In this document: positions 2,367-61,359 of the stretch, in pieces
Layout of the letters: each line of letters opens with the position of its first letter
Position numbering within the stretch: position 1 is the stretch's first letter
Assembly (NCBI RefSeq): GCF_029633865.1
Contig: NC_079212.1
Span: 88,308,986 to 88,372,985, forward strand
Direction of reading: 5' to 3'
Source: Lampris incognitus
Taxonomy: Eukaryota > Chordata > Actinopteri > Lampriformes > Lampridae
Length of the DNA stretch: 64,000 bases
Made by a program: the position numbers and the translations under genes
The notes under the pieces: generated by a model
What the model saw: the letters and a program-made list of their open reading frames with translations, nothing else
Told to the model about the DNA's origin: nothing
Databases searched by the model: none

Positions 2367-5300
2367 ATGAGCTCCCGGGACGCGCTGAAGAGCGCGTCTG
2401 CTCTGGCGTCTTATAACGTCCTGCTGCAGGTGTGTAGCGCCGCTTAGCGTTATAACGCGCCGAGTTTCAGCTTGGTTACTGTTTGTCTTGAACGGTCGCC
2501 GCCGTTGTCTGAAGTGGGTCTTCCTCGTCGCTTGTTGCAGGTGGTGTTCCGTGTGCTGACCTTCCTGCTCAACGCTTTTACGCTGCGCTTCGTGTCCAAG
2601 GAGCTGATCGGGGTGGTTAATGTCAGGTAAGGCTGACGGCCCGCTGTCCTTGGACCGGAGCTGCGGAAGCCCGGTGCCGCACAGGAGAGTTCTCCCCGAC
2701 ACCCTTCTCCAGTGGTTGTAACCCGTGTGTGTGTGTGTGTGTGCGCGCGCGTGTTGTGTATCAGTGGCGCCCCCAAGGGGTGGCCAGGGGTGGCCACGAC
2801 CACCCTGATACTATCCCTGCCCCCCCCCCCCCAACCACGAGTCGCATAATTATGCAGAATATGCTTCTGGTTATGCAGACTATGCTTCTGACTATGCAGA
2901 CTATGCTTCTGGTTATGTAGATTATGCTTCTGGTTATGCAGACTATGCCTCTGGTTATGTAGACTATGCTTCTGACTATGCAGACTATGCTTCTGACTAT
3001 GCAGACTATGCTTCTGGTTATGTAGATTATGCTTCTGGTTATGCAGACTATGCCTCTGGTTATGTAGACTATGCTTCTGACTATGCAGACTATGCTTCTG
3101 ACTATGCAGACTATGCTTCTGGTTATGCAGACTATGCTTCTGGTTATGCAGACTATGCTTCTGACTATGCAGACTATGCTTCTGGTTATGCAGACTATGC
3201 TTCTGGTTATGCAGACTATGCTTCTGACTATGCAGACTATGCTTCTGACTATGCAGACTATGCTTCTGGTTATGCAGACTATGCTTCTGATTATGCAGAC
3301 TATGCTTCTGGTTATGCAGACTATGCTTCTGACTATGCAGACTATGCTTCTGACTATGCAGACTATGCTTCTGGTTATGCAGACTATGCTTCTGACTATG
3401 CAGACTATGCTTCTGTCTGGTATTTTACATTAGGTGCAGCCAGCCGCTTTTGACCGTCCATCACTGCATCGCACATATACAATATAACAATGAATCGTCT
3501 TAATGCGTCACAATATATACATAACACATTAAAACAGAATTGTTGCGGAACTCAGAATGTGAACTGTACCGGTATTAGTCTATGCACATCAGATATTTAG
3601 TGACATTAACTGTAAAAATAAAATAAAATAAGAAACCAAAGTATTTCAGTGTATGATTCCTTAACTCTCATCTTGACAGTTTTCAACCAGCCTGTACCGT
3701 ATAACTACAACGGCATAATAGAATTCCTGAAATTCAGTCATGGCTTTTGGTTTTGGTGTGCCACCCCAAGATTTTCGGGGGCCCCGTTTGGCCACCCCTG
3801 TGAAACATTTCTGGGGGCGCCACTGTTGTGTATACTCTTACAGGCTGACACTGCTGTACTCCACGCTGGTCTTCCTATCCAGAGAAGCATTCCGGAGGGC
3901 TTGTCTGAGCGGGGGCTCCGGTGCAGGCCGTAACTGGAGACAGGTGATCAACCTGCTGTGGTTGACGTGAGTTGGATCGTTGCGGAAGAGATTTACAAGC
4001 GTTTCACTCGACGCTTAACATCCACTTGAGGCTCCGCATAGTTTTACTGTAAGGTGACTTTCCATCTCTTAGGTTACCGCTCGGCGTGTTATGGGCACTC
4101 CTATTGGTCTGCGTGTGGCTGTGGCTCCTGGAGGCCCCGGATGCCCAGATTATCCCGCACTACGGTCCCGCTGTGGGAATCTTTGCCTTGGCTGCAGTGC
4201 AGGAGCTGCTGGCTGAACCTCTCTGGGTCCTGGCCCAAGCCCACATGTTTGTCAGATTGAAAGTGGTAGCTGAGAGCTTAGCAATGGTTGCTAAGTGCCT
4301 TCTAACTGTGGTCATGGTGGTGTCTGCTCCTGACTGGGGCCTGTACATCTTCTCGGCCGCTCAGGTAAGGAGTGACCCAAAGTGCTCGACACTATCGCTC
4401 TCAATTTTTCTTGCCTATATTTTGATTGTAAGCAATTTTTAACAATACTATCCTGTTCCGTGAAGCACTTTGTAACCTTGTTTAGAAAAGTGCTATGAAA
4501 TAAAGTTTATTATTATTGTAATTCAAAGGCATGGTCTCTTTTAGTTTGTGTACACAGGGTTCTTGGTGCTCTGCTATGTTGTCTTCTTCTGTCGTTTCCT
4601 GGGATCTGAAGACGCCAACCAGAAGTGCTTCCCCCTGCGAGGTGTTGGAGAGCTGCTGCCCCACAGAGCTGACCAAGAGGTAGTATTACTTAAACCTCCT
4701 TAACTCAAACTGAACCTCTGAGCGACACTGCACTGTGCATTTATTACCGCTGGCAAGTCAGAACCATACTGTATACTAAAGCTGTAATATTTGGCTTTTT
4801 ACAAATCTGCAGTATTCTGTATAACTGCAACTCCAAAAGCCCTTTATTCAAAGGCTTACAGTCCATTAAATTACATGGTATATTTGGGTCTCAATATTTT
4901 TTGCTGTGTACAAAAATAAACAAAAAAAGGATCACAGAAAGACAGTAAGGCTAATGACCGCCGTACCTTTGCAAAACCTGCAGTCTTCAAGCCAAAATTG
5001 TCAAGTCTTTTTTTGAAATTATATCCTGTGTGCTGTGTTTTCCTATCTCCAAAGCTGAAGCAGGGGTCTCCTAGTTACAATTACTCCTTAAGAAATACAG
5101 CATCGTTGTGCTATGCTTCATGTCCCCTGTACTTCTGAGAGATACCTGGTATATGATCTTGGTTTTTTTTTTCAGCCATGGACTGACTGGACACTGACCA
5201 AGCTGACGTGGAGCTTCTTTAAGCAGTCCTTCCTGAAACAGATTCTGACGGAAGGTGAGCGCTATGTCATGACCTTCCTGAACGTCCTCAGCTTTGGGGA

Positions 5301-7194
5301 CCAGGGCGTTTATGACATTGTCAACAACCTGGGCTCCACGGTGGCACGTTTCCTCTTCCTGCCCATCGAGGAAAGCTTCTATGTCTTCTTTGCCAAAGTT
5401 CTGGAGAGAGGGCGCGATGTCAGGAACCAGAAACAGGTCTGAATCAGAAATGGAAATTTAATAGCTTCTTTGCCATTGGCTTACTGGGGGTCACATTGTC
5501 TGACTTGATTCTCCATGCGGATTTGCCAACAGGAGGAAGTTGCTATTGCAGCAGAGGTCCTGGAGTGTCTGCTGAAATTGGTACTCGTGATTGGCCTGAT
5601 TGTCACAGTGTTTGGTTATGCCTACTCCCACCTGGCTCTGGACATCTACGGTGGCTCTCTTCTGAGCACCGGGACTGGTTAGTCAGCTGTGGACTTATCA
5701 AATCACAGAAGGCGCAGTAATATTAAACTGGTTCTTTTTGGTGTGTCTAGTCATATATCTTTGGTGTAATTGTACCTTTGATATATTTGTGTCTTTGGTG
5801 TATGTGTCACATGGTGTATTTAAATTTTGTTGAAGGGCCTACGTTGTTGCGATGCTACAGTGCCTATGTCCTCTTGCTGGCTGTCAATGGTGTGACAGAG
5901 TGCTTTGTGTTTGCCGCCATGAGTCAAGAGGAAGTAGACCGGTAAGGATACACAAACGCCCCACACAATACACATACATACATCATTTTTCATTAACATA
6001 CCATGTTTTGTCTGTCAGTTAACTGAGTTTCTTTTCTGCCCTGTGGTTAGATATAACCTGGTGATGCTGGGTCTGTCCGTGTCTTTCCTGGTCCTGTCCT
6101 ACATGCTGACATGGTGGGCTGGGGGTGTCGGTTTCATACTGGCCAACTGTCTCAACATGGGCCTCCGCATCCTGCACAGTCTCTTCTACATACGGCGCTA
6201 CTTCCATTCCAGTCCATGGAAGCCCCTGCGAGGCCTGTTGCCCTCCCGAGTCCTGCTGCTGGTACTCGTCCTCAGTGCGGTGGTCACGGCATTCTCTGAG
6301 GTAGCGACTAAACATGACTCGTTTTACATTTGTGTGTTTTTCTGAACAGCAACAGTCATCCCACAGTAAGGACACAGTTTAATTATTATTCAAATTGAAG
6401 CAGGACTTTTTTTTTTTTGGGGGGGGGGGATTATTTTTCCCCTTTCACTCCCCAATTGTATCTGGCCAATTACCCCACTCTTCCAAGCCATCCCTTCTGT
6501 CAATCCGGGGAGGGCTGCAGACTACCACATGCCTCCTCCCATACATGTGGAGTCACCAGCCGCTTCTTTTCACCTGACAGTGAGGAGTTTCACCAGGGCG
6601 ATGTAGCATGTGGGAGGATCACGCTATTCTCCCCAGTTCCCCCTCCCCGCTGAACAGGTGCCCCGACCGACCAGAGGAGGCGCTAGTGCAGCGACCAGGA
6701 CACATACCCACGTCTGGCTTCCCACCCGCAGACACGGCCAATTGTTTCTGTAGGGACGTCCGACCAAGGTAACACGGGGATTCAGTCCGGTGATCCCCGT
6801 GTTGGTAGGCAACGGAATAGATCGCCACGCCACCCGGACGCCCGAAGCAGGACTTTTCAAACAAAAATACACATTTCGAACACGAGACAAACAAATAGAC
6901 GCGGTGTGTTGTGTTGTGTTCGCACAGTGCAATGTGAGCAACCTTTTTTGAAAACTTCTTATGTTGTTTCGAGTGTACTGCCCGCATTTTTGTCTGGTTT
7001 TTTTATGTCAGTTTATTCTCTGGTTTCAGGGTATGTTGTGCTGTGACAGTGGCTGGATGCTGAAACTGGTCCACATCTGCGTTGGAGGCGTGTGCCTGCT
7101 GAGTGTGCTTGTAACAGTTCTCCTCACAGAGACTCAGCTCGTTCAGTTTGTGAGGACTCAGCTCTTGCCCCATTACAGAAAGAAGCACACGTGA
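2367..7194 (+). CDS. rft1: RFT1 homolog, ER multi-pass protein of N-glycan precursor assembly
   Basis: Ten coding exons join in frame: 2367-2429, 2541-2626, 3844-3966, 4073-4364, 4545-4679, 5176-5436, 5533-5677, 5836-5941, 6051-6300, 7030-7194. Every intron has GT-AG ends. They total 1626 bp, or 541 residues, the length I recall for human RFT1. The protein is strongly hydrophobic with about a dozen likely membrane segments. A highly conserved stretch in exon 6 holds '[16 protein letters not shown]' and '[14 protein letters not shown]'; exon 8 has 'NGVTECF'. RFT1 belongs to the MOP-like flippase superfamily and is needed for Man5GlcNAc2-PP-dolichol use in the ER; whether it is itself the flippase is disputed. 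The start is the ATG after a CpG-rich leader and gives the conserved 'LASYNVLLQ' N-terminus. Intron 2 carries a hAT element and intron 9 a SINE. I found no canonical AATAAA close after the stop. Confidence 0.96.
2857..3418 (+). repeat. 21-bp minisatellite, about 27 copies
   Basis: Tandem units of 21 bp made from the words 'tatgcagactatgcttctg' plus 'gt' or 'ac'. The two variants alternate irregularly, and a few units read 'tgtag' or 'tgcct'. Because 21 is a multiple of 3, one plus frame stays open as a heptapeptide repeat ([14 protein letters not shown]). There are no spacers, so it is not a CRISPR array. Confidence 0.95.
3419..3780. other. Non-repetitive interior of the hAT element
   Basis: AT-rich internal sequence between the minisatellite and the right terminal region. 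No coding potential is seen. Confidence 0.5.
6411..6843 (-). mobile_element. tRNA-derived SINE (family A) in RFT1 intron 9
   Basis: On the minus strand the element opens with a tRNA-like head and closes with a G-rich tail. A 14-bp duplication 'gaagcaggactttt' flanks it at 6397-6410 and 6844-6857. The same ~430-bp family recurs at 7537, 26340, 33636, 35243, 37020, 38839 and 39655. Confidence 0.9.
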
Positions 7195-9873: not shown

Positions 9874-9893
9874 TTACTTGTATACGGTGTGTC

Positions 9894-12800
9894 TACTACT
9901 ACTTTCGGCTGCTCCCGTTAGGGGTCGCCACAGCGGATCATCCGTTTCCATTTCTTCCTGTCTTCTGCGTCTTCCTCTGTCACACCAGCCACCTGCATGT
10001 CTTCCCTCACCACATCCATAAACCTCCTCTTTGGCCTTCCTCTTCTCCTCTTCCCTGGCAGCTCCATATTCAGCATCCTTCTCCCAATATACTCAGCATC
10101 TCTCCTCCACACATGTCCAAGCCATCTCAATCTTGCCTCTCTTGCTTTGTCTCCAAACCGTCCAACCTGAGCGGTCCCTCTAATATAATCGTTCCTAATC
10201 CTGTCCTTCTTCGTTACTCCCAGTGAAAATCTTAGCATCTTCAACTCTGCCACCTCCAGCTCCGCCTCCTGTCTTTTCGTCAGTGCCACTGTCTCCAAAC
10301 CATATAACATAGCTGGTCTCACAACCATCTTGTAAACTTTCCCTTTAACTCTTGCTGATACCCTTCTGTCGCAAATCACTCCTGACACACTTCTCCACCC
10401 ACTCCAACCTGCCTGCACTCTCTTTTTCACCTCTCTACTGCACTCCCCGTTACTTTGGACAGTTGACCCCAAGTATTTAAACTCAAATGCCTTTGTCACC
10501 TCCACTCCTTGCATCCTGACCATTCCACTGTCCTCTCTCTCATTCACGCATAGGTATTCCGTCTTGCTCCTACTGACTTTCATTCCTCTTCTCTCCAGTG
10601 CATACCTCCACCTCTCCAGGCTCTCCTCAACCTGCACCCTACTCTCGCTACAGATCACAATGTCATCCGCGAACATCATCGTCCATGGAGACTCCTGCCT
10701 GATCTTGTCCGTCAACCTGTCCATCACCATTGCAAACAAGAAAGGGCTAAGAGCCGATCCTTGATGTAATCCCACCTCCACCTTGAACCCATCTGTCATT
10801 CCAACCGCACACCTCACCATCGTCACACTTCCCTCATACGTATCCTGCACCACTCCTACATACTTCTCTGCAACTCCTGACTTCCTCATACAATACCACA
10901 CCTCCTCTCTCGGCACTCTGTCATAAGCTTTCTCTAAATCTACAAAGACACAATGCAACTCTTTCTGGCCTTCTCTATACTTCTCAATCAACATTCTCAA
11001 AGCAAACATCGCATCTGTGGTGCTCTTTCGTGGCATGAAACCATAATGCTGCTGACTGATCGTCACCTCTCCTCTTAACCTAGCTTCTATTACTCTTTCC
11101 CAAATCTTCATGCTGTGGCTGATCAACTTTATACCTCTGTAGTTGTTAGAGTTCTGCACATCGCCCTTGTTCTTGAAAATCGGTACCAGTATGCTTCTTC
11201 TCCACTCCTCAGGCATCCTCTCACTTTCCAGGATTGTGTTAAACAATCTAGTTAAAAACTCCACTGCCATCTCTCCTAAACATCTCCATGCCTCCACAGG
11301 TATGTCATCAGGACCAACTGTCTTTCCACTCTTCATCCTCTTCATAGCTGCCCTCACTTCCTCCTTGCTAATCCGCTGAACTTCCTGATTCACTATCCCT
11401 ACATCATCCAACCTTCTCTCTCTCTCATTTTCTTCATTCATCAGCCCCTCAAAGTATTCCTTCCACCTTCTTAGCACACTCTCCTCGCTTGTCAGCACAT
11501 TTCCATCTCTATCCTTGATCGCCCTAACTTGCTGCACATCCTTTGCAGCTTGGTCCCTCTGTCTAGCCAATTGGTACAAGTCCTTTTCTCCTTCCTTAGT
11601 GTCTAATCTGTCATACAACTCACCATACGCCTTTTCCTTTGCCTTTGCCACCTCTCTCATTGCTTTACGCTGCATCTCCTTGTACTCCTGTCTACTTTCT
11701 TCATCTCTCTGACTATCCCACTTCTTCTTTGCCAACCTTTTCCTCTGTATACTTTGCTGTACTTCCTCATTCCACCACCAAGTCTCCTTGTCTTCCTTCC
11801 TCTGTCCTGATGACACACCAAATACCTTCCTAGCTGTCTCCCTCACTACTTCTGCAGTGGTTTTCCAGCCATCTGGCAACTCTTCACTACCACCCAGTGC
11901 CTGTCTTAACTCCTGCCTGAACTCCACACAACAGTCTTCCTTCTTCAACTTCCACCATTTGCATCTCCGGCTGTCTCTTCACTCGCTTCCTCTTCTTGGT
12001 CTCCAAAGTCATCCTACAGACCACCATCCGATGCTGCCTAGCTACGTTCTCCCCTGTCACCACCTTGCAGTCTCCAATCCCTTTTAGATGGCGCCTTCTA
12101 CATAAGATATAGTCCACCTGTGTGCACTTTCCTCCACTCTTGTACGTCACCCTGTGTTCCTCCCTCTTCTTGAAATATGTATTCACCACAGCCATTTCCA
12201 TCCTTTTCGCAAAATCGACCACCATCTGTCCTTCCACATTTCTCTTCTTGACTCCATACCTTCCCATCACCTCCTCATCACCTCTGTTCCCTTCACCAAC
12301 ATGTCCATTGAAGTCCGCTCCAATCACCACTCTCTCCTCCTTGGTTACCCTCTCCACCATGTCATCCAACTCACTCCAGAATTCTTCTTTTTCATCCATC
12401 TCACACCCAACTTGTGGGGCATATGCGCTGATAACATTCGGCAATAAACCTTCAATTTCCAGCTTCATACTCATCACTCTGTCTGACACTCTCTTCACCT
12501 CCAGCACGCTCTTGACATACTCTTCCTTCAGAATTACCCCTACCCCATTACTCCTCCCATTCACACCATGGTAGAAGAGTTTGAACCCACCTCCGATACT
12601 CCTGGCCTTACTCCCCTTCCACCTGGTCTCTTGCACACACAGTATGCCTACCTTTCTTCTTTCCATCATGTCAGCCAGCTCTCTCCCTTTACCAGTCATA
12701 GTGCCAACATTCAAAGTTCCAACTCTCACCTCCACATGCCTACCCTTCCTCCTCTCTAGCTGCCTCTGGACATGCTTTCCCCCTCTCCTTCTCCTTCGCC

Positions 12801-13028
12801 CAACAGTAGCATAGTTTCCACCGACACCCTGCTGGTTAACAGTACTGATGGCGGTCGTTGGTAACCCGGGCCTCGACCGATCCGGTATGTAAGTCTTATT
12901 TATGATCCGCATATTTGATTTGGCAAAGATTTTACGCCGGATGCCCTTCCTGACGCAACCCTCCCCATTTGTACGGGCTTGGGACCGGCACTAAGGATGC
13001 ACTGGCTTGTGCATCCTCAGTGGCTGGG
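9894..13028 (-). mobile_element. RTE-clade LINE, nearly full length, with target-site duplication
   Basis: The element runs on the minus strand from a 5' end near 13028 to a 3' end with a short (AGT)n tail at 9894. A 20-bp repeat 'tttacttgtatacggtgtgt' flanks it at 9874-9893 and 13029-13048; the first three T may belong to the element. It encodes an APE-type endonuclease and a reverse transcriptase, split by one frameshift. The 5' leader and tail match the copy at 58194-61290. Confidence 0.93.
9918..12912 (-). pseudogene. RTE ORF2: APE endonuclease plus reverse transcriptase, one frameshift
   Basis: The N-terminal frame 12912-11887 opens with an ATG and holds the endonuclease words 'LNVGTM', 'QETRWKG', 'GADFNGH' and 'QVDYILCR'. 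The second frame, 11948-9918, holds the RT with 'VPIFKNKGD', 'NNYRGI', 'FVDLEKAYDRVP', 'LHQGSALSP' and the catalytic 'MFADDIVIC', then a C-terminal region ending near '[13 protein letters not shown]'. Comparison with the copy at 60240-60270 shows one extra base near 11955 as the only cause of the split. Everything else reads through. RTE elements copy themselves by target-primed reverse transcription. The family is close to, but not the same as, BovB. Confidence 0.9.
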
Positions 13029-13136
13029 TTTACTTGTATACGGTGTGTACTGTAAATTATTTATTAAGTTTTATATGAGTTGATTTTTAGCAACAAAATA
13101 ACTATAGCTTAAAAAAACAAAACCAAGATGAAACTT

Positions 13137-36232: not shown

Positions 36233-39200
36233 GGACAATTTAGTATGGCTTATTCACCTGACCAACATGTCTTTGGACTGTGGGAGGAAACCCACACACA
36301 CACAGGGAGAACATGCAAACTCCACACAGAGTTACGACCCGGGATGACCCCCAAGGTTGGACTACTCCGGGGCTCGAACCCAGGACCTCCTTGCTGTGAG
36401 GCGGCCGTGCTAACCACCGCCCCGCCCCGATATTATATGTTATTATAAATGATTGTTCATTTTGTCTCTAGAGTTGAAAAGTCTTCCCGTCTCCCTTGTC
36501 CAGGTGACTGATGACTACACTGTGATTGGACGAAACCTGTTCAAGAAAGAGACCAACCTGCAGCTCTTTGTGGGCTTGAAGGTCACGCTGTCGACAGGCG
36601 AGTCGGGGATTATCGAGGGTGGTTTCGGACAGAGCGGGAAGTTTAAGATTCGGATATCAGGTAAGGAGTTGGCGGAAGTTTACATTTTACATTTTCTCCT
36701 TTAGCAGACTACATTATCCAGGCTGACGTACAAGAGAGTCTGCAGTCAGCCGACTCTCTCAAGTCACGTGTCAATTTATGGGCACCTTAGAGCCCTGAAT
36801 AGTAATCTTGTCATAGCCAAAACTACATGACAGCTGCATAATGAGCACATCAACGTTGGCGTTACAAGTAACGGATGATTTAAAGTAGAAATAGCTGTAC
36901 AGTTCCACAAGTCAGGATCACAGATGTACAGCCAAGATCAAGTGCAAAAAGTGTAAGTGTAATATGTAGATGAACGGTGATGCAAGTAATAGGACCAGAG
37001 GATAAAATTACACAATAGTTAAGACGTCCAGATGGCTTAGCGGTCTATTCTGTGGCTACCAACACAGGGCTCGCCGAATCGAATCCCTGTGTTACCTAAG
37101 GCTTGGTTGGGCGTCCCTACAGACACAATTGGCCGTGTCTGTGGGTGAGAAGCTGGATGTGGGTACGTGTCCTGGTCTCTGCACTAGTGCCTCCTCTGGT
37201 CGGTCGGGGTGCCTGTTTGGGGGAGGGGGGGGGGTCGGGGGGAATAGCGTGATCCTCCCACGTGTTATGTCCCCCTGGTGAAACTCCTCACTGTCAGGTG
37301 AAAAGAAGCGGCTGGTGACTCCACATGTATCAGACTAGTCATGTGGTAGTCTGCAGCCCTCCCCGGATCGGCAGAGGGGGTGGAGCAGAGATCGGGGCGG
37401 CTCGGAAGAATGGGGTAATTGGCCAAGTACAATTGGGTGAAAAGAGGGGGGGGGGATTACACAATAGTCGGATAATACCACCCACAAAGACTGCTCTATA
37501 GTCTGAGACCATCTGTGGATTAAGGTACACCTGGAAAAGGAAAGTGTTTAGTCCCCTTTTTTATTTATTTATTTATTTAACGTAAGTCAATCAGTTGCTC
37601 TGATATAAGATGGGTGTTCAGTCCACCTTTTTGGGACCAGATGGGAAAAACATCTGCCCGTATAGCCCTTTTGAAGGGACTACTGACAGAAGCCCTCTAG
37701 AGGTAGAGAAAAGGGTGGGCGGCAGTGGACATCCTAACACGAGTCGCAGGTAAGTCAGTGTGGTTCCTTAACCTGCTGGGAAAGCCAGCAGCGAGGTTTT
37801 GAAATGGGTGCGGACAGCAACCAGTAACCAGTGTCAGGTTATACAACGTTTGCTAGCTTGATGTTTTCCTGGGAATTTAAGAAAACATGATGGCAGAACT
37901 GTCATAAGACAAAGGGATCAGGGCAGCTCATGGTGAGTTTGTGAGGGATTTGTGTCGAGCTAACTGCAGTTTGACAAGGGAAAGCGGGCGTTGCTCTCTT
38001 GTTTTACATAATACCTGCGTACACATACACATGCAAACACGAAAGCAGCTTCTCTCTCTCTATTTGGATTTCATGGGGTTTTGTGAACCACGTTCAGGAT
38101 GTGGTGAGAGGGGTAGGTCTTGAAATCCCGAGTCGCATTCCCAGGATTCCTCTGGGGATTGCCCGTGTTCCGGGGGATGTATGCTCTCTGTTTATTTTAC
38201 CTTCTGTCACTCCGACCCGCTGCTCCACGCTGGGAGAGAAGGGAAAACAAAAACATTTAGAAAGAGAACCTCACCTACATCCTCTTAACTCACCCACACT
38301 CCCATACCTCGCTCTCAAACGCACCGACACACTGATCCCCCCCCGCCCGCAAGGATGGCAGAGCCATTGAGTAGAGGGGTTTTAGAGGCACTGCTGGGTT
38401 CGGGGAGAGAGGATGGTACTGCCCTGACACTGTGTGTTCCCTCACCCTCGGACCTTTTGTCCCGTTGCCCCAAATGTGTGCCTTCTCTTTTCATTCTTTA
38501 GTCATTCCCCTCAAGGGCACACGAGCGGAGATGTAGAAATTAAAGTGTGTGTGTGTGTGTGTGTGTGTGGGGGGGGGTTGAAAGAAGGACAGTTTGATTA
38601 TTGTACTTAAATTGGTGTTGTCACGCAGACGTACCTGTTAAATCCCCCTCTGTCCCGCCCTAATGCCTCCGGCTCCAAACTCACACCCACAAACTCCCCC
38701 TTCCTACGCAGAGCTCTGGCTCACATCGCCTGGAAGACCTCTGCACCAAGCCCCTGGTCAGTGACCCCAGGTACTGACCTCCACATTCAAGCACTTTAAA
38801 AAGACAAAAATAGGCAACACATGTAAGATTTCTATCTTTGCGGGGCGTCTCGGTAGCATAGCAGTCAATTCCATTACCCCACGAGGATCGCCGGTTCGAA
38901 TCCCCGTGTTACCTCCGGCTTGGTCGGGCGTCCCTACAGACAAAATTGGCTGTTTCTGCAGGTGGGAAGCTGGATGTGGGTATGTGTCCTGGTCGTTGCG
39001 CTAGCGCCTCCTCTGGTCGGTCGGTGTGCCTGTTCGGGGGGAGGGAGAACTGAGGGGAATAGCGTGATCCTCGCACCTGCTACGTCCCCATGGTGAAACT
39101 CCTCCCTGTCAGGTGAAAAGAAGCGGCTGGCGACTCCACGTGTCTGGGAGGAGGCATGTGGTAGTCTGCAGCCCTCCCCGGATCGGCAGAGGGGGTGGAG

Positions 39201-40596: not shown

Positions 40597-43500
40597 ACAC
40601 ATATACACATACCTTAGGGACAAGTTAGTACGGCCGAGTCACCTGACCTACATGTCTTTGGACTGTGGGAGGAAACCAGAGCACCGGGAGGAAACCCACA
40701 CAGACACGGGGAGAACATGCAAACTCCACACAGAGGACGACCCGGGACGACCCCTAAGGTTGGACTACCCTGGGGCTCAAACCCTGAATCTTCTTGCTGT
40801 GAGGCGGCCAGACTAACCACTGCGCCGCCGTGCCACAATGATAGATTTTTTTTTATTTTTTGGATGGTATCCATATACAGTACCACTGTTTTAGTTGTTA
40901 TCAGCTCTCCTTGCTCTCCTCTCTAGATGGTATGTCCTGTGAAGTGTCATATCCAGAATGCCGGACAATGTGAGGAGAATCCCTACCCCAGCCAAATGCC
41001 TTAGAGTCCCAAATCCTATGTTAGCGCTAATAAAAAGACCTCCGGGACAGTTGGTGATGGTCGTTTGTGTAACCATTTCCGTTTGAAAAGGTACGCTTAT
41101 CATGCGTAAGTTGTTTAGTGACTTACATAGCTGGGTAGATGCTGAATGCTTGATGTTGACGTGAGGTAGCTTGTAAAAAAATACAGGCCATTTCTTAAAC
41201 ATCTTCTGCCTGTTGTTTCTCTTGTATGTGAACACAAATTACATGGAGTAAGGGTGCAAGTCGGTGTTGCGGATGGGTGGGTGGCATGCCGATCATAGAT
41301 AAGAGACAGAGATATCTGTCAGCCCCGCAACCATGACAACCCTCACGTTAGCATAACCATAACAACGTGAATACTGGCGCCATTATAAAGCTGGGTCAGA
41401 CTGCCGGGGAGTACAGCACTTTATTTGTTGTCACATTTTTTCACCTCCGCGTGTGCAAACTGGCAAAGTGAGCGAGTCAACGCTTTCTTTCTTACATGCA
41501 CAGACACACAGGAGACGAGGAGGCGATCGTGCCATAGAGAAATCCGTGGTACGCACATCTAACAGGAGCATCCGACACCAACCCGCTTGTCAGGGGTCAG
41601 AGAGGGAGAACCGCAACCAATATGCAAACCTAAATAGGAGAACATTGATGAGTGTGGGATCGAGCAGAGAGAAGAAGGAGATGCGGGGGTACAAATGCCA
41701 GGACAAACCTGTGCCATGACCGTAAAGGCCAAACCATTGAGGGGAGAACAAGATTTCTCCAGCTGTTAATCAACAGCATCCAGTTTTATACATATCACTT
41801 GTGTATTTAATGTTGCATTAAGCTGTATTATATTTGATATTAACAGTGAATCTCCCGGCTGGACTACAGCAACTCCCTCCTTGCTGGCGCCCCGGCGTCG
41901 GCCATCAGACCTCTGGAGCTTGTTCAGAAAGCTGCAGCTCGTCTGGTGTTCAACCGCCCTAAGTTCTCCCACACAACTCCCCTTCTCATGTCCCTACACT
42001 GGCTCCCAGTAGCTGCTCGCATCCAGTTTAAGACTCTGGTGCTAGCCTACAGGGCAGTGAAAGGAGCAGCTCCTTCCTATCTCCAGGCCATGGTCAAGCC
42101 CTACACCCCCGCCCGACCACTTCGCTCTGCTGCCTCGGGACGCCTGGTTGCCCCGTCGCTCAGAGGCCCCTGCTGCCGATCGACCCGGTCCCAGCTCTGT
42201 TCTGTCCTGGCCCCACAGTGGTGGAATGAACTCCCCACCGATGTCAGGACAGCGGAGTCTCTGCCCATCTTTCAGCGCAGGTTGAAAACTCACCTCTTCA
42301 AGAACTACTACCCTGTTACTTGTTCTTAGCACTTATTGTATTCACTCATTTAAAAAAAAAATCTCTTTCTTGCACTTTTACTTTAGCACTGCTTTTGCTC
42401 TTAGATGCTGGTTTAGATGCACTTATGACCTCTGATGACTAGTAGTTCTCCTGATCTCCTACGTTAAATGATGCACTTATTGTAAGTCGCTTTGGATAAA
42501 AGCGTCGGCTAAATGACTGTAATGTAATGTAATGAATCAAACGACTCCTTGCGATGTGAAAGAATTGCTAATACTGCAAATCCCACTGAGAATCAACATA
42601 GAGAAAAATGTATCTTAACTTTCGGCTCATTGTTTGGCATTGCTTGTCCATCAAAGGGCACCTTCCTCTCTGGTTGAGTCCCTCCTTCTCTTACCAGTCC
42701 CCCCGTAAAACCATTTATCAATGTTCACAACTCTTCTGGGTTGTGAGAGTACGCTGCCTGCCACGTCTCCTCTCAATATTTTAAATTATATTTACTAGTT
42801 GGCATTGCTAGTTGATATTTTGATTTTAGGATTTTAGCCATTTATTTATTTTTACATTCCGCTGCTTTAGTCTGCTCGCTGAGTGCTGAAGATTGTTTTA
42901 AGACCTGCCTGTTTCTCTGGACTCTACCAGTTCATTCATTCTGGCGAGGATGAGAACCGTGTTGACTCTACCATTTTTCCTGACCTGTTTACCGGTAGAA
43001 TATTCATATGATCCTCCACTGGAGTTCCTTTTTGGATTCCAGCCTCTGATTTACCAAGCTTACTACCCACATATCTTCACCTTATATCTCACCTGGATTG
43101 ATCTCTCTTACCAGGACTTTGCTGTCTTGTTTGGATTTTACTCTACTCCCGGACCACTCACCAGGCTCTTGGGATTCTGACATGAGGATGGTGTGTCGAG
43201 CTGCCTACTGCCATGGGGCTCACACAGAAAATATATATTCCGCGAGTCACTGAACTGCAACATTCCCTCATTCTGGATGACTGCTCGTCTCCCAAACAAA
43301 TACAGTAACGAATTGCCCTGGTATTAATGTTAACTCCCTTAAAACTGTGGATAAAGTGACAAGTTTTCCATCCCCTGCCACCTCACCTACTACACTGAAA
43401 GATCATTTGTGCTGTTCAATACTCACGCTCTCAATAGCAAATCACTCCTGATATCCATCCATCCATTATCTGAACCGCTTATCCTGCTCTCAGGGTCGCG

Positions 43501-46500: not shown

Positions 46501-49500
46501 GGCCACTTAATGTGCAGCTACCCAGCTTGTTGGGGGTGGATACCATCTCTTCTAAAAAAGGAAAAGCGTTCTCAGAACAAATCGAAATTTTCGATGAAGC
46601 CCAAATTATGAGCTCTGCAGGCAGACTGGAGCCAAGTGTGGAGGTTGCGGATTCTGCTGAAGCACCCTACTCCACGGGCCACTGTGGGAATAAGACTGGA
46701 AATAAAAACGGATTTTCCAGAAGAACTTAAAAGGTTAAAAAGGTTGTTAAAATCCTTTTTAGTCAGTTCAGACTGCTGACAAGCTGCCTTGTTAGTCCCC
46801 ACGTGTACTATCACTCGGTTGGTAGAGGATGGGAGTGAGCTAAGCAGCCCCGGGAGCTTAACCGGGATGACGGGGACCACGGCTCCAGGGAAACAGTGTG
46901 TAGCTGCGTTAAAGAAACGGATGTTCCTGATTATGGAATCCCCCACTATTAATGTAGTTGGAGAGAAGGGGGGACGGGGGGCTGACGGCTGTGGGTTCTC
47001 GGGGCTGGAGAGGGCATAATCTGTTTCCGCAGGCTGTGTTAATGTCGCTGGCTGATGAAGGGGTGTCTGGGCTGGCAAGTGTTGTGGCGAGGCAGCGACA
47101 ACAGACCTGTGAGAGGGATTCCCTGCCGACTCGGGACAAGGAGGAAGACTTCCATGTCTGAGCACAGCCTCTCTCAGAGTCTTACGACGGGAAGTCGTTG
47201 ACCCGGATGAGGGCCGATGATTTGGCTTTGCAGTGGAGCGGCAAGCCACCTGAACATTGCTAGCCACAGGAGGTGTGGAAGCTGCGGTGTCGGCACACAT
47301 CGTTGTAGGAGAGGGGTTCGGAACAGGAGCATCGGCTGGGTTTACGGGGGTGTCGTCAGACAGTGTCGCGTAGCAGTTGGAGAACCTTAGGCGAGGGGGA
47401 GAGGCAGCTCCGTCCAAGTCTCTCTTATGACCACGGAACACCATTTTGGCCCAGGATGACTTGTGGTTACGTGTCAAGCAGGAATTAAGCTGTGGGCTAA
47501 CGGTGGCATTAGCATTGTGCTCACTGACAGGCAGCTCATCTCTAGAATAATAAACCTGTTCTCCAGCCTAACCTCTGTTGAGACATCGGTGGAACTCTGC
47601 TTGTTGTGTCTGACTCTTCTTTTACCCCGGAGAACGTCTGTCCAGAGCTCAGGGTTTGACACTGCGGGGGTCGAACATGTCTTTGGTCTTGCTCCTTGGT
47701 TTAGCCAACAGCACCTATCCAGATCCGATGTGGTGTCGGTCTCAAGCGGGTTCAGGCCGGACCAGGGAATAGTGTCTGCATAGTCATCGGCGTGGGGTTT
47801 CATGTCCCTGGTTCTGATCGTCAGCCGGTTCCGGGACATCAGCTTGGGAAGCAGCGATCAGAGTGTCAATAACGTTTTCATCCTCTTGTATTTGGTAAAG
47901 CATAGAGATTCTTTCTTCAAGCTCTGTGGTTTTCTGGCTGAGCGTGGCACAGCTGGTCCATTCAGTGGCGGGAGAAGAGAGGGGAGGTGTTTTTTCCCAA
48001 GGCCTGAAGACTGAAAATGGGAACAAGGCTGTATTTCCAGAAATCACACAAAAACTCAGAGAGGAAGTATAATAAGACCGCCAATTACGGCCATTGCAGG
48101 GGGCTGAGTCCATGCAGTTCTCGCCACACACAGCGAAAGCACTCCAGAGTCAGAGACTCCAGTGCGATCAAGTCCATGCAACAATCAGTGATCTGATAAA
48201 ATCCAGAAGACAGTACAGGCAAGCCATAAAATTAATTAAAAGTTGTTAAAAGTAATGTAATGTTGAGGCTAAAAACTAGATAAAAATGTCAATTTATGAC
48301 AGACCTTCTAGCAGTAAAACACAATGCCGATGCCGACACAACGCCGGCGTGTGCGAGATGGAAGCAAAGTTATTTTGCAATCAAGCGGATATGGCAGAAT
48401 AAGCCCATAAATGAGCTCTACGAGGAGATACTATAACAGCTGCAGAAACCGGTTCAACCAAGTTTGTTTGTTCGGTGGTTCGGCTGACGCAGCCACACTG
48501 TGGACTTGGTTTCATTTTGAACAGATCTCTGGGATTTAGAGAGCTCAAACACAACTGCAGTTACCATGTCTCACCATAGGCGGCAGCAAGTAAGAAAAAA
48601 AATCTCAAGGATTCTAACTTAAGGATACTTACCTAGCAGGGGAGATACCATGACCAAGAAGGTGGTTCACCCAGGGCAAGGCTTAACCATTTCACTCCGG
48701 TTGTGCCGACCCCTGCGAACTCCCCAAATGTGGGAATCTCGACTGCATAATTTCTGGTAGTGTGGGACTGCGTTCGCGCTCTCCCCTGTTATTATTACCA
48801 AATTTGACCTCGGGGATGAATAAACTATTGTGATTTAACAAGGTGGAAAACACACGAGTCATTTTCCAGTTCATACACACTGAGATTACAATACAAATGA
48901 CAATACATTAGGGAGCATTTGTGTAAAGCAGTGTTTCCCAACCCAGTTCTCAAGGACCCCCTATCCTGCAGGTTTTCTTTGCAACCCTGAATTGGGTGAG
49001 GAGAATGAGGCAACTCTGCTAACAGCCCTCGATGCCGTAGATGATGAGAACCTGTCTCCGTTTGATACACTTCCCGACTCGGACCTTCTGTCGGGTCAGA
49101 AGGGCAGAGAACACTCCGACTGGTGGACTGAGTTCTGCAAACTACCTGTTTGTAGTTATTCAACCAATCAGCAATGAATTATGTCAGATTTTGCACACCT
49201 TGCATAATTAAGTGCTGTGGGATGATTGGTTGAGTAAGTACAAGCAGGGCTACCTTTGCAGGGTTACAATGAAAATCTGCAGGATAGGGGTGCTTGAGGA
49301 CTGGGTTGGGAAACACTGGTATAAAGCATGATCTGTCTATTTCTTTAACGTGGTTCTGGGTGTTTTAGGTTTAATGTAATATTTCAGATGCCAGTCTTGC
49401 CTTATTATCTCTTTATCTTTCCGCAGAGGGTCTTGGCCCAGAAACCAAGCAGCTATTGTCCTCCACCTCGAAGAAGAAAGGAAAAGGTGAGGGCAGAGGC

Positions 49501-49608
49501 GACGCAGCGAAAGGCGACGAGCCCAAAGCAGACTCCCAGCCAGTCGGCATTCACTTGCACTTCAAGCGATACGTCTTCGATCCCCATAAGAAAATGGTTC
49601 AGTCCTGA
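23067..49608 (+). CDS. eefsec: EEFSEC, selenocysteine-tRNA-specific elongation factor
   Basis: Seven coding exons: 23067-23367, 26018-26225, 26807-26903, 27404-27568, 28940-29590, 36504-36660, 49427-49608. They total 1761 bp, or 586 residues (human 596). All junctions are GT-AG and in frame. The GTPase domain shows 'GHVDSGKT' (20-27), the switch I region '[11 protein letters not shown]' (49-59), 'DCPGH' (87-91) and 'NKVD' (141-144). Domain II carries '[16 protein letters not shown]'. Domain III has a proline/serine-rich loop at about 349-375 unlike the human loop. The C-terminal domain IV (about 475-586) ends '[17 protein letters not shown]' and is basic, as expected for SECIS/SBP2-linked function. 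The protein delivers Sec-tRNA to UGA codons in selenoprotein mRNAs in the cytosol. The start ATG has G at -3 and +4. Introns are large and full of repeats. Confidence 0.97.
23368..26017. other. EEFSEC intron 1
   Basis: 2.65 kb without a recognisable gene or element. It has a short (GCTA)n run near 25353-25375 and a purine-rich then pyrimidine-rich stretch at 24660-24900. Confidence 0.5.
26340..26776 (+). mobile_element. Family A SINE in EEFSEC intron 2
   Basis: It starts with a tRNA-like head: 'tagcatagcggtctattc' (A box) and 'ggttcgaatcccc' (B box). It ends in an 'aaaaggggg' tail. A short repeat 'aactcatg' flanks both sides. The SINE makes up about three quarters of the 581-bp intron and ends about 30 bp before exon 3. 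Confidence 0.85.
27302..27387 (+). repeat. (TG)43 microsatellite beside the EEFSEC exon 4 acceptor
   Basis: An uninterrupted 86-bp TG run. It is separated from exon 4 (27404) only by 'gtgttttctgtctcag'. Confidence 0.97.
27569..28939. other. EEFSEC intron 4
   Basis: No gene or clear element. It holds a (GGGA)n tract near 27680-27698 and an AT-rich middle. Confidence 0.5.
29591..30436. other. EEFSEC intron 5, first part
   Basis: No gene seen. A (CT)n tract lies near 30180-30210. 'cattttgaccgg' near 30276 resembles the terminal repeats of the element starting at 30437. Confidence 0.4.
30437..31209. mobile_element. TIR element (MITE-like) with internal direct duplication
   Basis: 'ctacctagaacgacc' and 'gcggtcaaaatgacgg' at the left are matched, inverted, by 'ccgtcattttgaccgc' and 'ggtcgttttaggtag' at the right. 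Inside, a block of about 165 bp ('gacacaatatagagttta' and flanks) occurs twice, about 325 bp apart. There is no coding sequence. The TIR resembles those of piggyBac-like elements, but no flanking TTAA pair fits, so the superfamily is uncertain. Confidence 0.6.
31210..32046. other. EEFSEC intron 5, middle part
   Basis: No recognisable gene or repeat. It is GC-rich near 31500-31650. Confidence 0.4.
32047..32653. mobile_element. hAT-type non-autonomous element with internal 53-bp repeats
   Basis: Ends 'cagtgtttctcaaccggggg' and 'ggttgagaaccactg' are inverted and Charlie-like. Inside, a unit of about 53 bp carrying 'tatatctgaaagttactg' is repeated three times (32320-32460). I could not see a matching 8-bp duplication outside. 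Confidence 0.65.
32655..32720 (+). repeat. Possible tRNA-like SINE head
   Basis: 'gtgttcgcgtcccgac' resembles a B box and 'ctaactggttaag' lies about 50 bp upstream. The element behind it is not recognisable. Confidence 0.25.
33205..33375 (-). repeat. Dispersed repeat, unclassified
   Basis: The block from 'gtcaagtcagttttatttg' to 'gcagggaggaaaaacag' is a sequence I recognise as repeated in many percomorph genomes. It has no coding sequence. The class is not certain. Confidence 0.45.
33636..33925 (+). mobile_element. Family A SINE, internally shortened
   Basis: A 10-bp duplication 'caacccacga' flanks it (33626-33635, 33926-33935). The head is reduced to 'ggcgtggcgtggcgtgg', joined directly to the body at 'actcctctggtcagtcgg'. 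Confidence 0.8.
33936..35242. other. EEFSEC intron 5, later part
   Basis: No gene seen. GC-rich near 34900-35000. There is a purine-rich G/A stretch at 35040-35220. Confidence 0.4.
35243..35633 (+). mobile_element. Family A SINE
   Basis: The head is 'ggcggtctagtccgttgcc' with a weaker B box 'gtttgaatcccc'. The flanks read 'taaaatgagatccc' and 'taaaatgaggtccc', a 14-bp duplication with one change. Confidence 0.85.
36031..36428 (-). mobile_element. V-SINE-like element with internal (CA)n
   Basis: In minus orientation it has a tRNA-like head with 'gggttcgagccc', the 'ttggactgtgggaggaaacc' block (plus strand), a (TG)n run of about 55 bp and a (GGAT)n tail. 'gatattat' flanks it at 36023-36030 and 36429-36436. 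It ends 75 bp before EEFSEC exon 6. Confidence 0.85.
37020..37455 (+). mobile_element. Family A SINE with 13-bp target-site duplication
   Basis: 'attacacaatagt' flanks it at 37007-37019 and 37456-37468. The body is complete from head to G-rich tail. Confidence 0.9.
37469..38838. other. EEFSEC intron 6 DNA, no gene seen
   Basis: Contains (TTTA)n at 37560-37578 and (GT)n with a G run at 38548-38578. No other structure is recognised. Confidence 0.4.
38839..39235 (+). mobile_element. Family A SINE
   Basis: It has the head 'ggtagcatagcagtcaattc', the B box 'ggttcgaatcccc' and the usual body. The tail is cut after 'gtggggtaatt'. No clear duplication flanks it. Confidence 0.8.
39655..40047 (-). 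mobile_element. Family A SINE, reverse orientation
   Basis: 'ttgagggtaata' flanks it at 39643-39654 and 40048-40059. It reads head to tail on the minus strand. Confidence 0.88.
40360..40840 (-). mobile_element. V-SINE-like element with (ATCC)n tail and (CA)n core
   Basis: A full-length relative of the copy at 36031. The tail (ATCC)n spans about 40362-40430, the (CA)n core about 40541-40590, and the tRNA-like head ends near 40835. Confidence 0.85.
40841..41835. other. EEFSEC intron 6 DNA, no gene seen
   Basis: No recognisable element or gene in about 1 kb. Confidence 0.4.
41840..42535 (+). mobile_element. L2-type LINE, 3' end
   Basis: A plus-strand frame open at 41946-42329 encodes the C-terminal tail of an L2/CR1-group polymerase, with '[15 protein letters not shown]' and '[10 protein letters not shown]'. 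The 3'UTR ends 'agtcgctttggataaaagcg' followed by a short (TGTAA)n tail, a classic L2 terminus. It is 5'-truncated. Confidence 0.85.
42536..43449. other. EEFSEC intron 6 DNA between two LINE insertions
   Basis: No confident feature. A 76-codon plus frame (42950-43180) is rich in aromatic residues and leucine, but has no recognisable family or splice context. Confidence 0.35.
43453..43538 (-). repeat. V-SINE-like 3' tail joined to an RTE 3' end
   Basis: (ATCC)n plus the 'gatgctggagcctatccc' block, ending at 'ggcagcag' and running straight into the RTE terminus without a spacer. Confidence 0.75.
43539..44072 (-). mobile_element. RTE LINE 3' fragment inside a chimeric retroelement
   Basis: The minus strand encodes the RTE C-terminal region ('[18 protein letters not shown]', '[10 protein letters not shown]'), matching 10250-10450 and 58530-58740, with frameshifts and no (ACT)n tail. 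At about 44070 it passes directly into L2 sequence with only 'acagttg' as shared or ambiguous bases. Confidence 0.85.
44073..46350 (-). pseudogene. L2 ORF2: APE endonuclease and reverse transcriptase, degenerate
   Basis: The frame 46350-45283 encodes the endonuclease with 'LLNAQS', 'LFLTETWL', 'GRGGGI' and 'SDHKC'. The next pieces (45623-45096, 44999-44781, 44708-44073) are in other frames and carry '[14 protein letters not shown]', 'GVPQGSIL' and '[12 protein letters not shown]'. The RT active site reads YAKD in place of YADD. The frameshifts and this change make it inactive. The family replicates by target-primed reverse transcription. Confidence 0.85.
46572..48131 (-). pseudogene. L2 ORF1 with coiled coil and SGNH-type esterase domain
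   Basis: Three overlapping frames (48131-47784, 47839-47474, 47477-46572). The first has a heptad-like stretch '[19 protein letters not shown]'. The last ends in an SGNH hydrolase-like domain with '[11 protein letters not shown]' (nucleophile Ser block) and '[10 protein letters not shown]'. Such esterase domains are known in ORF1 of CR1/L2-group LINEs. The middle is a proline/serine-rich linker. Broken by frameshifts. Confidence 0.75.
48569..48588 (+). promoter_or_regulatory. Possible snRNA proximal sequence element
   Basis: 'tctcaccataggcgg' lies about 55 bp before the U1-like sequence, the position of a PSE. It resembles the 'ACCAT/ACCGT' core of vertebrate PSEs but is not a clear match. 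Confidence 0.3.
48625..48788 (+). ncRNA. U1 snRNA-like sequence (variant or pseudogene)
   Basis: Exactly 164 nt, the length of vertebrate U1. It starts 'atacttacct' (the 5' splice-site-pairing end) and ends 'cgctctcccctg'. Long stretches match U1: 'gcaggggagataccatga', 'ccccaaatgtggga', 'gactgcgttcgcg'. Against human U1 from memory there are over a dozen changes. Some, such as 'ggttcaccc', may be normal in fish. Others hit binding sites: the U1-70K loop reads GACCAAGAAG (nt 28-37), the U1A loop reads ATTTCACTCC in place of ATTGCACTCC, and the Sm site reads AATTTCTGG in place of AATTTGTGG. No A-tail or clear 3' box follows. It lies in EEFSEC intron 6 on the same strand. A pseudogene is more likely than a working gene. 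Confidence 0.85.
48929..49318. mobile_element. hAT-type MITE, 390 bp
   Basis: Long inverted ends: 'cagtgtttcccaacccag' and 'ctgggttgggaaacactg', extending about 45 bp inward to 'ctatcctgcag' and its complement. The 8-bp flanks are 'gtgtaaag' and 'gtataaag', one mismatch. It ends 108 bp before EEFSEC exon 7. Confidence 0.88.
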
Positions 49609-58193: not shown

Positions 58194-61100
58194 AACTACT
58201 CCTACTACTTTTGGCTGCTCCCGTTAGGGGGCGCCGCAGCGGATCATCCGTTTCCATCTCTTCCTGTCTTCTGCGTCTTCCTCTGTCACACCAGCCACCT
58301 GCATGTCCTCCCTCACCACATCCATAAACCTCCTCTTTGGCCTTCCTCTTCTCCTCTTCCCTGGCAGCTCCATATTCAGCATCCTTCTCCCAATATACCC
58401 AGCATCTCTCCTCCACACATGTCCAAACCATCTCCATCTTGTCTCTCTTGCTTTGTCTCCAAACCGTCCAACTTGAGCGGTCCCTCTAATATACTCGCTC
58501 CTAATCCTGTCCTTCTTCGTCACTCCCAGTGAAAATCTTATCATCTTCATCTCTGCCACCTCCAGCTCCACCTCCTGTCTTTTCATCAGTGCCACTGTCT
58601 CCAAACCATACAACATAGCTGGTCTCACTACCATCTTGTAAACCTTCCCTTTAACTCTTGCTGATACACTTCTGTCACACATCACTCCTGACACTCTTCT
58701 CCACCCACTCCATCCTGCCTGCACTCCTGTCTTCACCCCTCTCCTGCACTCCCTGTTACTTTGTACAGTTGACCCCAAATATTTAAACTCATTTGCCTTC
58801 ATCACCTCCACTCCTTGCATCCTCACCATTCCACTGTCCTCCCTCTCATTCACGCATAGGTATTCCATCTTGCTCCTACTGACTTTCATTCCTCTTCTCT
58901 CCAGTGCATACCCCTACCTCTCCAGGCTCTCCTCAACCTGCACCCTACTCTTGCTACAGATCACAATGTCATCCGTGAACATCATCATCCATGGAGACTC
59001 CTGCCTGATCTCGTCCATCAACCTGTCCATCACCATTGCAAACAAGAAAGGGCTCAGAGCCGATCCTTGATGTAATCCCACCTCCACCTTGAACCCATCT
59101 CTCATTCCAACCACACACCTCACCACCGTCACACTGCCCTCATACATGTCCTGCACCACTCCTACATACTTCTCTGCAACTCCCGACTTCCTCATACAAC
59201 ACCACACCTCCTCTCTCGGCACCCTGTCGTATGCTTTCTCTAAATCTACAGACACAATGCAACTCTTTCTGGCCTTCTCTATACTTCTCAATCAACATTC
59301 TCAAAGCAAACATCACATCTGTGGTGCTCTTTTGTGGCATGAAACCATACTGCTGCTGCTGATCATCACCTCTCCTGTTAACCTAGCTTCTATTACTCTT
59401 TCCCATATCTTCATGCTGTGGCTGACCAACTTTATACCTCTGTAGTTGCTGCAGTTCTGCACATCACCCTTATTCTTGAAAATCGGTACCAGTATGCTTC
59501 TTCTCCACTCCTCAGGCATCCTCTCACTTTCCAAGATTGTGTTAAACAATCTAGTTAAAAACCCCACTGCCATCTCTCCTAAACACCTCCATGCCTCCAC
59601 AGGTATGTCATCAGGATCAACTGCCTTTCCACTCTTCATCCTCTTCATCGCTACCCTCACTTCCTCCTTGCTAATCCACCGAACTTCCTGATTCACTATC
59701 CCCACATCATCCAACCTTCTCTCTCTCTCATTTTCTTCATTCATCAGCCCCTCAAAGTACTTCTTCCACCTTCTCAGCACACTCTCCTCGCTTGTCAGCA
59801 CATTTCCATCTCTATCCTTGATCGCCTTAACCTGCTGCACATCCTTCGCAGCTTGGTTCTTCTGTCTAGCCAATCAGTACAAGTCTCTTTCTCCTTCTTT
59901 AGTATCTAACCTGTCATACAACTCACCATACGCCTTTGCCACCTCTCTCTTTGCTTTATGGTGCATCTCCTTGTACTCCTGTCTACTTTCTTCATCTCTC
60001 TGACCATCCCACTTCTTCTTTGCCAACCTCTTCCTCTGTATACTTTGCTGTACTTCTTCATTTCACCACCAAATCTCCTTGCCTTCCTTCCTCTGTCCTG
60101 ATGACACACCAAGTACCTTCCTAGTTGTCTCCCTCACTATTTCTGCAGTGGTTGCCCAGCCATCCGGCAAGTCTTCACTACCACCCAGTGCCTGTCTTAA
60201 CTCCTCCCTGAACTTCGCACAACAGTCTTCCTTCTTCAACTTCCACCATTTGATCTTCGGCTGTGTCTTCACTCGCTTCCTCTTCTTGGTCTCCAAAGTC
60301 GTCCTACAGACCACCATCCGATGCTGCCTAGCTACGTTGTCCCCTGTCACCACCTTGCAGTCTCCAATCCCTTTCAGATTGCACCTCCTGCATAAGATAT
60401 AGTCCACCTGTGTGCACTTTCCTCCACTCTTGTACGTCACCCTGTTTTCCTCCCTCTTCTTGAAATATGTATTCACCACAGCCATTTCCATCCGTTTCGC
60501 AAAATCGACCACCATCTGTCCTTCCACATTTCTCTCCTTGACTCCATACCTTCCCATCACCTCCTTATCACCCCTGTTCCCTTCACCAACATATCGATTG
60601 AAGTCCGCTCCAATCACCACTCTCTCCTCCTTGGGTACCCTCTCCATCACGTCGTCCAACTTACTCCAGAATTCTTCTTTCTCTTCCATCTCACATCCAA
60701 CTTGTGGGGCATATGTGCTGATAACATTCAGCAATACACCTTCGATTTCCAGCTTCATACTCATCACTCTGTCTGACACGCTCTTCACCTCCAGCACACT
60801 TTTGACATACTCTTCCTTCAGAATTACCTCTACCCCATTTCTCCTCCCATTCGCACCATGGTAGAAGAGTTTGAACCCACCTCCGATACTCCTGGCCTTA
60901 CTCCCCTTCCACCTGGTCTCTTGCACACACAGTATGCCTACCTTTCTTCTCTCCAGTCATAGTGCCAACATTCAAAGTTTCCGACTCTCACCTCCACACG
61001 CCTACCCTTCCTCCTCTCTAGCTGCCTCTGGACATGCCTTCCCCCTCTCCTTCTCCTTCGCCCAACAGCAGCATAGTTTCCACCAGCACCCTGCTGGTTA

Positions 61101-61290
61101 ACAGTACCGGGGTCGGTCGTTGGTAAACCGGGCCTCGACCGATCTGGTATGGAAATCTTATTTATGATCCGCATATTTGATTTGGCAAAGATTTTACGCC
61201 GGATGCCCTTCCTGACGCAACCCTCCCCATTTGTCCTTGCTTGGGAACGGCACTAAGAATATACTGGCTTGTGCATCCTCAGTGGCTGGG
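58194..61290 (-). mobile_element. RTE-clade LINE, second near full-length copy
   Basis: On the minus strand it shares with 9894-13028 the same 5' leader ('ggatgcccttcctgacgc' on plus), endonuclease, RT, and 3' end ('ttggctgctcccgttag'). The (ACT)n tail is short. A clean target-site duplication is not visible; only 'tatttag' is shared by the flanks. Confidence 0.9.
58224..61174 (-). pseudogene. RTE ORF2, several frameshifts, altered active site
   Basis: The frames 61174-60938, 60926-60063, 59873-59313, 59291-58914 and 58889-58224 cover endonuclease to C-terminus. The endonuclease-RT linker reads through here where the first copy is broken. The RT active site reads FTDD in place of FADD. Several frameshifts split the RT. 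Not functional. Confidence 0.88.
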
Positions 61291-61359
61291 TTTGCATATT
61301 TAGACTTAAGTTAATTCTGTGCTACTCTAGATTTGTAATTTTCAACCTTATTTTTTCCG

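Follow-up and report, generated by a model that had tools for sequence, protein, structure and literature searches.

A probable chimera of U1 snRNA and a LINE-like tail in an EEFSEC intron of Lampris incognitus

In the fish L. incognitus, an intron of EEFSEC carries a full-length copy of U1 snRNA that is followed, five bases downstream, by a short repeated 3' tail. The copy is best explained as a processed pseudogene that was made from RNA, with the type-A U1 of this genome as its source, and it most likely has the form of a U1/LINE-tail chimera. U1 and the tail presumably entered the intron in a single event. The features are listed in Table 1, where the window is the whole 64-kb stretch of DNA that was analysed.

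Table 1. Features of the U1 copy and its surroundings, in window coordinates
Feature	Position	Strand	Basis or comparison
Probable U1 snRNA retropseudogene, nt 1-164	48625..48788	+	8 changes vs the genome's type-A U1
T30C, U1-70K loop	48654	+	differs from the genome's own U1
G68T, U1A loop, ATTGCAC -> ATTTCAC	48692	+	differs from the genome's own U1
Sm site AATTTCTGG, unchanged vs the U1 genes read	48749..48757	+	comparison with type-A and type-B copies
5-nt linker TTATT, U1 to tail	48789..48793	+	sequence
LINE/SINE-like 3' tail, 42 nt	48794..48835	+	38/42 positions identical to tail copy L050
PSE-like region of the sequence-only reading	48560..48590	+	unlike the conserved PSE of the genome's U1 arrays
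EEFSEC exon 5' of the host intron	~36501..36665	+	PF21131 positions 17-71, C-terminal domain
Stop-to-stop ORF with C-terminal EEFSEC exon	49375..49605	+	PF21131 positions 70-119; 5izk residues 554-615 of 616

The Rfam covariance model for U1 (RF00003) matches the copy with 146.7 bits (gathering score 69.5; E 1.9e-37). The match covers positions 1-166 of the 166 in the model, which places the copy in U1 by descent. Besides U1, no Rfam family matched up to E 1 across 48400-49000. An earlier sequence-only reading of the window had asked for this search, and had described the copy as exactly of U1 length, with an intact 5' end for splice-site pairing, no trace of poly(A), and sense placement in an EEFSEC intron. 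Each of these points is borne out: the model is matched over its full length, the 5' end is intact, no poly(A) run is present, and the copy lies in the sense orientation between EEFSEC exons. Pfam was searched with every forward frame of 36.0-48.6 kb and with one forward frame (of three) of 24-36 kb; the EEFSEC exon gave the sole match.

Several other features are present in the window. An inverted-repeat element lies just 3' of the U1 copy at 48924-49323, with arms at 48924-48989 and 49259-49323, and is presumably hAT-like. A UnaL2-type LINE 3' element is found at 42469-42522 (Rfam RF00436, 57.9 bits). A long element is present in two copies (9893-13031 and 58199-61293) that are 93% identical and appear to contain a reverse transcriptase-like reading frame on the minus strand. 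RFT1-type coding stretches occupy 4053-4439 and 5938-6342 on the plus strand (Pfam Rft-1).

The U1 genes of the same genome serve as the reference for the copy. The 1.48-Gb genome (537 contigs) contains two types of U1, each in a separate array on contig C26, and at least one single copy on contig C22. The type-A array (10.44-10.50 Mb) has at least 13 copies, and the type-B array (28.9-29.1 Mb) has at least 28; these counts are lower bounds from 42 scored copies among 21,760 first-look candidates. All 13 scored type-A copies were read; 10 are identical and the other three have one or two base differences. The four type-B copies read, out of 28 scored, differ from type A at five or six bases. 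In one type-B copy, pair 50:89 is changed from G-C to C-G and pair 51:88 to G-U, and no pair is broken. The two types could be stage-specific forms of U1.

The window copy is 95% identical to type A and shows 13 or 14 differences from the type-B copies. It departs from type A at U1 positions 11, 30, 54, 61, 68, 83, 96, and 139, which correspond to 48635, 48654, 48678, 48685, 48692, 48707, 48720, and 48763. All of these except 48654 and 48692 lie outside the positions that the sequence-only reading had named as diagnostic. That reading had proposed changes in all three protein-binding sites, which is correct for the U1-70K and U1A loops and incorrect for the Sm site. In the U1-70K loop, 48654 (T30C) is a true change and 48657 (A33) is normal for this genome; in the U1A loop, 48692 (G68T) does depart from the genome's own U1. 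The supposed Sm-site change at 48754 (C130) is found in 13/13 scored type-A and 4/4 read type-B copies. Since both types carry A33 and AATTTCTGG, 48657 and 48754 are normal, and a variant Sm site was rejected. We assign 48654 and 48692 to the two loops from established knowledge; U1 positions 30 and 68 fall in conserved Rfam columns.

A transcribed variant U1 gene, with its own promoter and a predicted weakening of U1-70K and U1A binding, would agree with the full length, the intact 5' end, and the intact Sm site of the copy. The helices, however, argue against function. Three of 44 pairs are broken in the window copy (54:86, 96:112, and 139:162), where the 44 are the Rfam structure minus two pairs that lack standard pairing in type A. 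None is broken in types A and B. When eight random changes were simulated, a mean of 2.43 pairs were broken, and three or more were broken in 45% of the simulations. The three broken pairs are thus at the neutral level that random mutation predicts. The loop changes at positions 30 and 68 are consistent with the same decay.

The upstream region also speaks against a gene. Arrays A and B share the proximal sequence element (PSE) GGCACCGT(G/C)AT(C/A)CAGATAGATGTG, located about 60 to 38 bases upstream of U1. A matrix built from 11 type-A and four triple-weighted type-B promoters gives 38-42 bits for the genes, a range in which the training genes scored themselves, and -24 bits for the C22 copy. 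The window copy reaches -12 bits, close to the random-piece median of -11.6, and 56% of random pieces equal or beat it. The best place in the 120 bases scanned is at -101 and not at the PSE-like word of the sequence-only reading, which does not resemble the PSE of this species. The PSE was not found at -120 to -1 of the window copy, and a PSE-driven gene copy was rejected by the comparison of -12 with 38-42 bits. Together with the flank comparison described next, these results make a transcribed variant gene very improbable.

The homology runs exactly from nt 1 to nt 164 and stops at the ends of the RNA. When 450 bases upstream of the copy and 200 downstream were compared by BLAST with the flanks of the array genes, no convincing match emerged (best E 0.015, antisense). 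Because of these exact ends, the missing PSE, and the lack of convincing flanks, the copy is considered to be RNA-derived, as is typical of processed pseudogenes. The sequence-only reading had preferred a dispersed snRNA gene copy over a retropseudogene, a preference that these results do not support; the full-length pseudogene that it had offered as the alternative is right. Segmental duplication of an array U1 gene at the DNA level, followed by divergence of the flanks, would explain a full-length U1 body but nothing beyond it. The body is still 95% identical to type A, yet the immediate flanks have no convincing homology, although even arrays A and B still have a conserved PSE region in common. 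Such a duplication is the least probable of the origins considered here.

At its 3' end, the copy runs through the linker into the 42-nt LINE-like tail, so that the missing poly(A) is no argument for a gene copy. The tail is a repeat in the sense orientation that resembles SINE ends, and it is presumably the end of a LINE. The genome contains 554 occurrences of its 25-nt core, CCTCGGGGATGAATAAAGTATTCTG, against 0 of the reversed control. Four of these 554 places were read (L050-L053), and all align to the tail of the window copy. When about 3 kb was taken around each of the four, what they had in common was limited to about 45-55 bp at the tail; the sequence directly upstream differs, and other repeats are found further up in some pairs. 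The body of a LINE with this tail was not found in these stretches. The putative source LINE would end in CCCAATTTCCCCTCGGGGATGAATAAAGTATTCTG(ATTCTG)n. Among the papers listed in a literature search, none deals with this tail, judging by title and abstract.

Another dispersed U1 copy, L046, has a related tail. In a comparison of this tail with 20,000 random 64-nt pieces, the score of the window was reached by one piece, which was the window locus itself. A hand-trimmed L046 tail had six matches in 214 kb (the sample plus the window). The window locus scored highest. Each of the five remaining matches is the 3' end of a tRNA-headed SINE, which we take to be V-SINE/Mermaid-like; the tRNA-like head is likewise our own reading.

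The U1 copy and the tail may also have arrived in two steps. In that case the U1 retropseudogene would have come first, and a separate, later insertion would have placed a very short piece of a LINE tail 5 bp downstream. The 554 tail cores in the genome are in favor of this origin. However, the five other matches on both strands in 214 kb put the chance of a sense tail within 25 nt of any chosen point at only about 3e-4. Furthermore, of the seven long dispersed U1 copies described below, five lead into a tail or SINE in the sense orientation, with a linker in between that is short (4-14 nt) or, in L046, A-rich.

Target-site duplications give the two-step origin some further support, as no duplication enclosing U1 together with the tail or SINE was found. 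For the window copy, no significant duplication was detected. The best candidate, a gapped match between 48610-48624 and 48832-48843, was reached by 405/5000 random pieces and 1145/5000 pairs of the same geometry, and by 122/3000 pieces or 366/3000 shuffles in a narrower test. It was rejected as proof of insertion because random sequence reaches it too often. A composite duplication was also not found in L013, L034, L036, and L044. In L013, the SINE alone seems to be flanked by TATTTTTGT (5/3000 random pieces, 63/3000 shuffles), which favors two separate insertions at this locus, with the SINE as the later one. In L034, the A-rich linker recurs after the SINE, at the level of composition only (46/3000 pieces, 1188/3000 shuffles). 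The tail of L046 could be a separate event because an A-rich stretch separates it from U1. As the composite duplication and the LINE body are missing and the exact junction is seen once, the two-step origin is kept as an unlikely but serious alternative to a single event.

The dispersed copies were sought with a U1 5'-end pattern outside the arrays, and 5'-truncated copies are therefore represented only by L044. Fifteen non-array U1 5' ends were obtained, including the window, and all were read; eight are short and seven are long. Two of the seven long copies, the window and L046, are followed by this tail; L046 covers U1 1-133. Three others (L013, L034, and L036) are followed by a SINE within 4-14 nt, and two (L032 and L037) have neither. 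L034 carries about 35 extra bases near U1 nt 83-87. Because there are only 13 SINE heads in 214 kb, or 15 if two partial matches are counted, it is far above chance that three of the six other long copies run into a sense SINE head. In L044, found through its SINE, TTTATTTTT connects U1 nt 92-164 with the SINE, the arrangement expected if copying began on the SINE side and ended early. An intact U1 end joined exactly to the tail core occurs once, at the window. SINEs with snRNA-derived heads were reportedly described by Kojima in 2015, and in them, too, an snRNA-derived sequence precedes the tail of an element. An amplified U1-headed family was not seen here, since the linkers differ among the copies read.

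The eight short copies are 34-40 nt fragments of the U1 5' end. Seven of them (L033, L035, L038, L039, L047, L048, and L049) have flanking repeats of 15-17 aligned positions, which are matched by at most 41/2000 random pieces (five by 0, L033 by 1, and L039 by 41). L045 has no such repeat. These fragments represent a second route of U1 copying.

A single-event origin of the window copy can be pictured as follows. The reverse transcriptase of a LINE would start target-primed copying on the tail of a LINE (or SINE) RNA. After about 42 nt, it would jump to the 3' end of U1 snRNA by template switching and copy U1 completely to nt 1. The product would be inserted into the EEFSEC intron, where the U1 copy, without a PSE, would decay neutrally. 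More generally, the reverse transcriptase of one tail-recognizing LINE might repeatedly capture U1 3' ends. This would yield independent U1/LINE-tail and U1/SINE chimeras with short A/T-rich linkers, next to the second route that leaves short 3'-truncated fragments with clear flanking duplications. We put this more general scheme forward only tentatively. U1 RNA with an oligo-adenylated or oligo-uridylated end may have been the template of the A/T-rich linkers.

Template-switched snRNA/LINE-tail chimeras are an already known class. PMC4476161 defines four groups of snRNA pseudogenes, mainly of U6, and group IV consists of snRNA/LINE or snRNA/SINE chimeras for which template switching is proposed. 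L2 and RTE LINEs, as well as SINEs, take part in them. In group IV, the snRNA copy precedes a non-LTR element, usually a truncated one, in the same orientation, and the window copy resembles this arrangement if its tail is such an element's end. The window copy is a U1 in a fish, and no significant flanking duplication was found for it. In that study, 33 U1 sequences include no template-switch U1/L1 chimera. The short copies resemble the 3'-truncated pseudogenes of group III, with eight in this genome and 7/8 having a flanking repeat, whereas the window copy spans all of U1 and carries a tail. According to PMC13174262, U1 is among the RNAs already reported in LINE-1 chimeras (U1-U6 snRNAs); these are mammalian, whereas the window copy is from a fish and has another type of tail. 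The human variant U1 genes in PMC13172311 are likewise divergent U1 paralogues, but they are studied as functional ones, and the tests of promoter and helices argue against such a function for the window copy. No fish U1 chimera appears among the literature matches listed, as far as titles and the starts of abstracts go, which is no proof of absence. A U1 word had 0 hits in the genome-contig collection scanned, and U1 and tail words had 0 in the viral-contig collection.

These results remove a candidate variant U1. The reference for such copies must be the U1 genes of the species itself and not human U1. If the chimera is true, U1 and a fish element would join the template-switching products that are known mostly from U6, and the linkers may reflect the state of the RNA 3' end at the time of capture.
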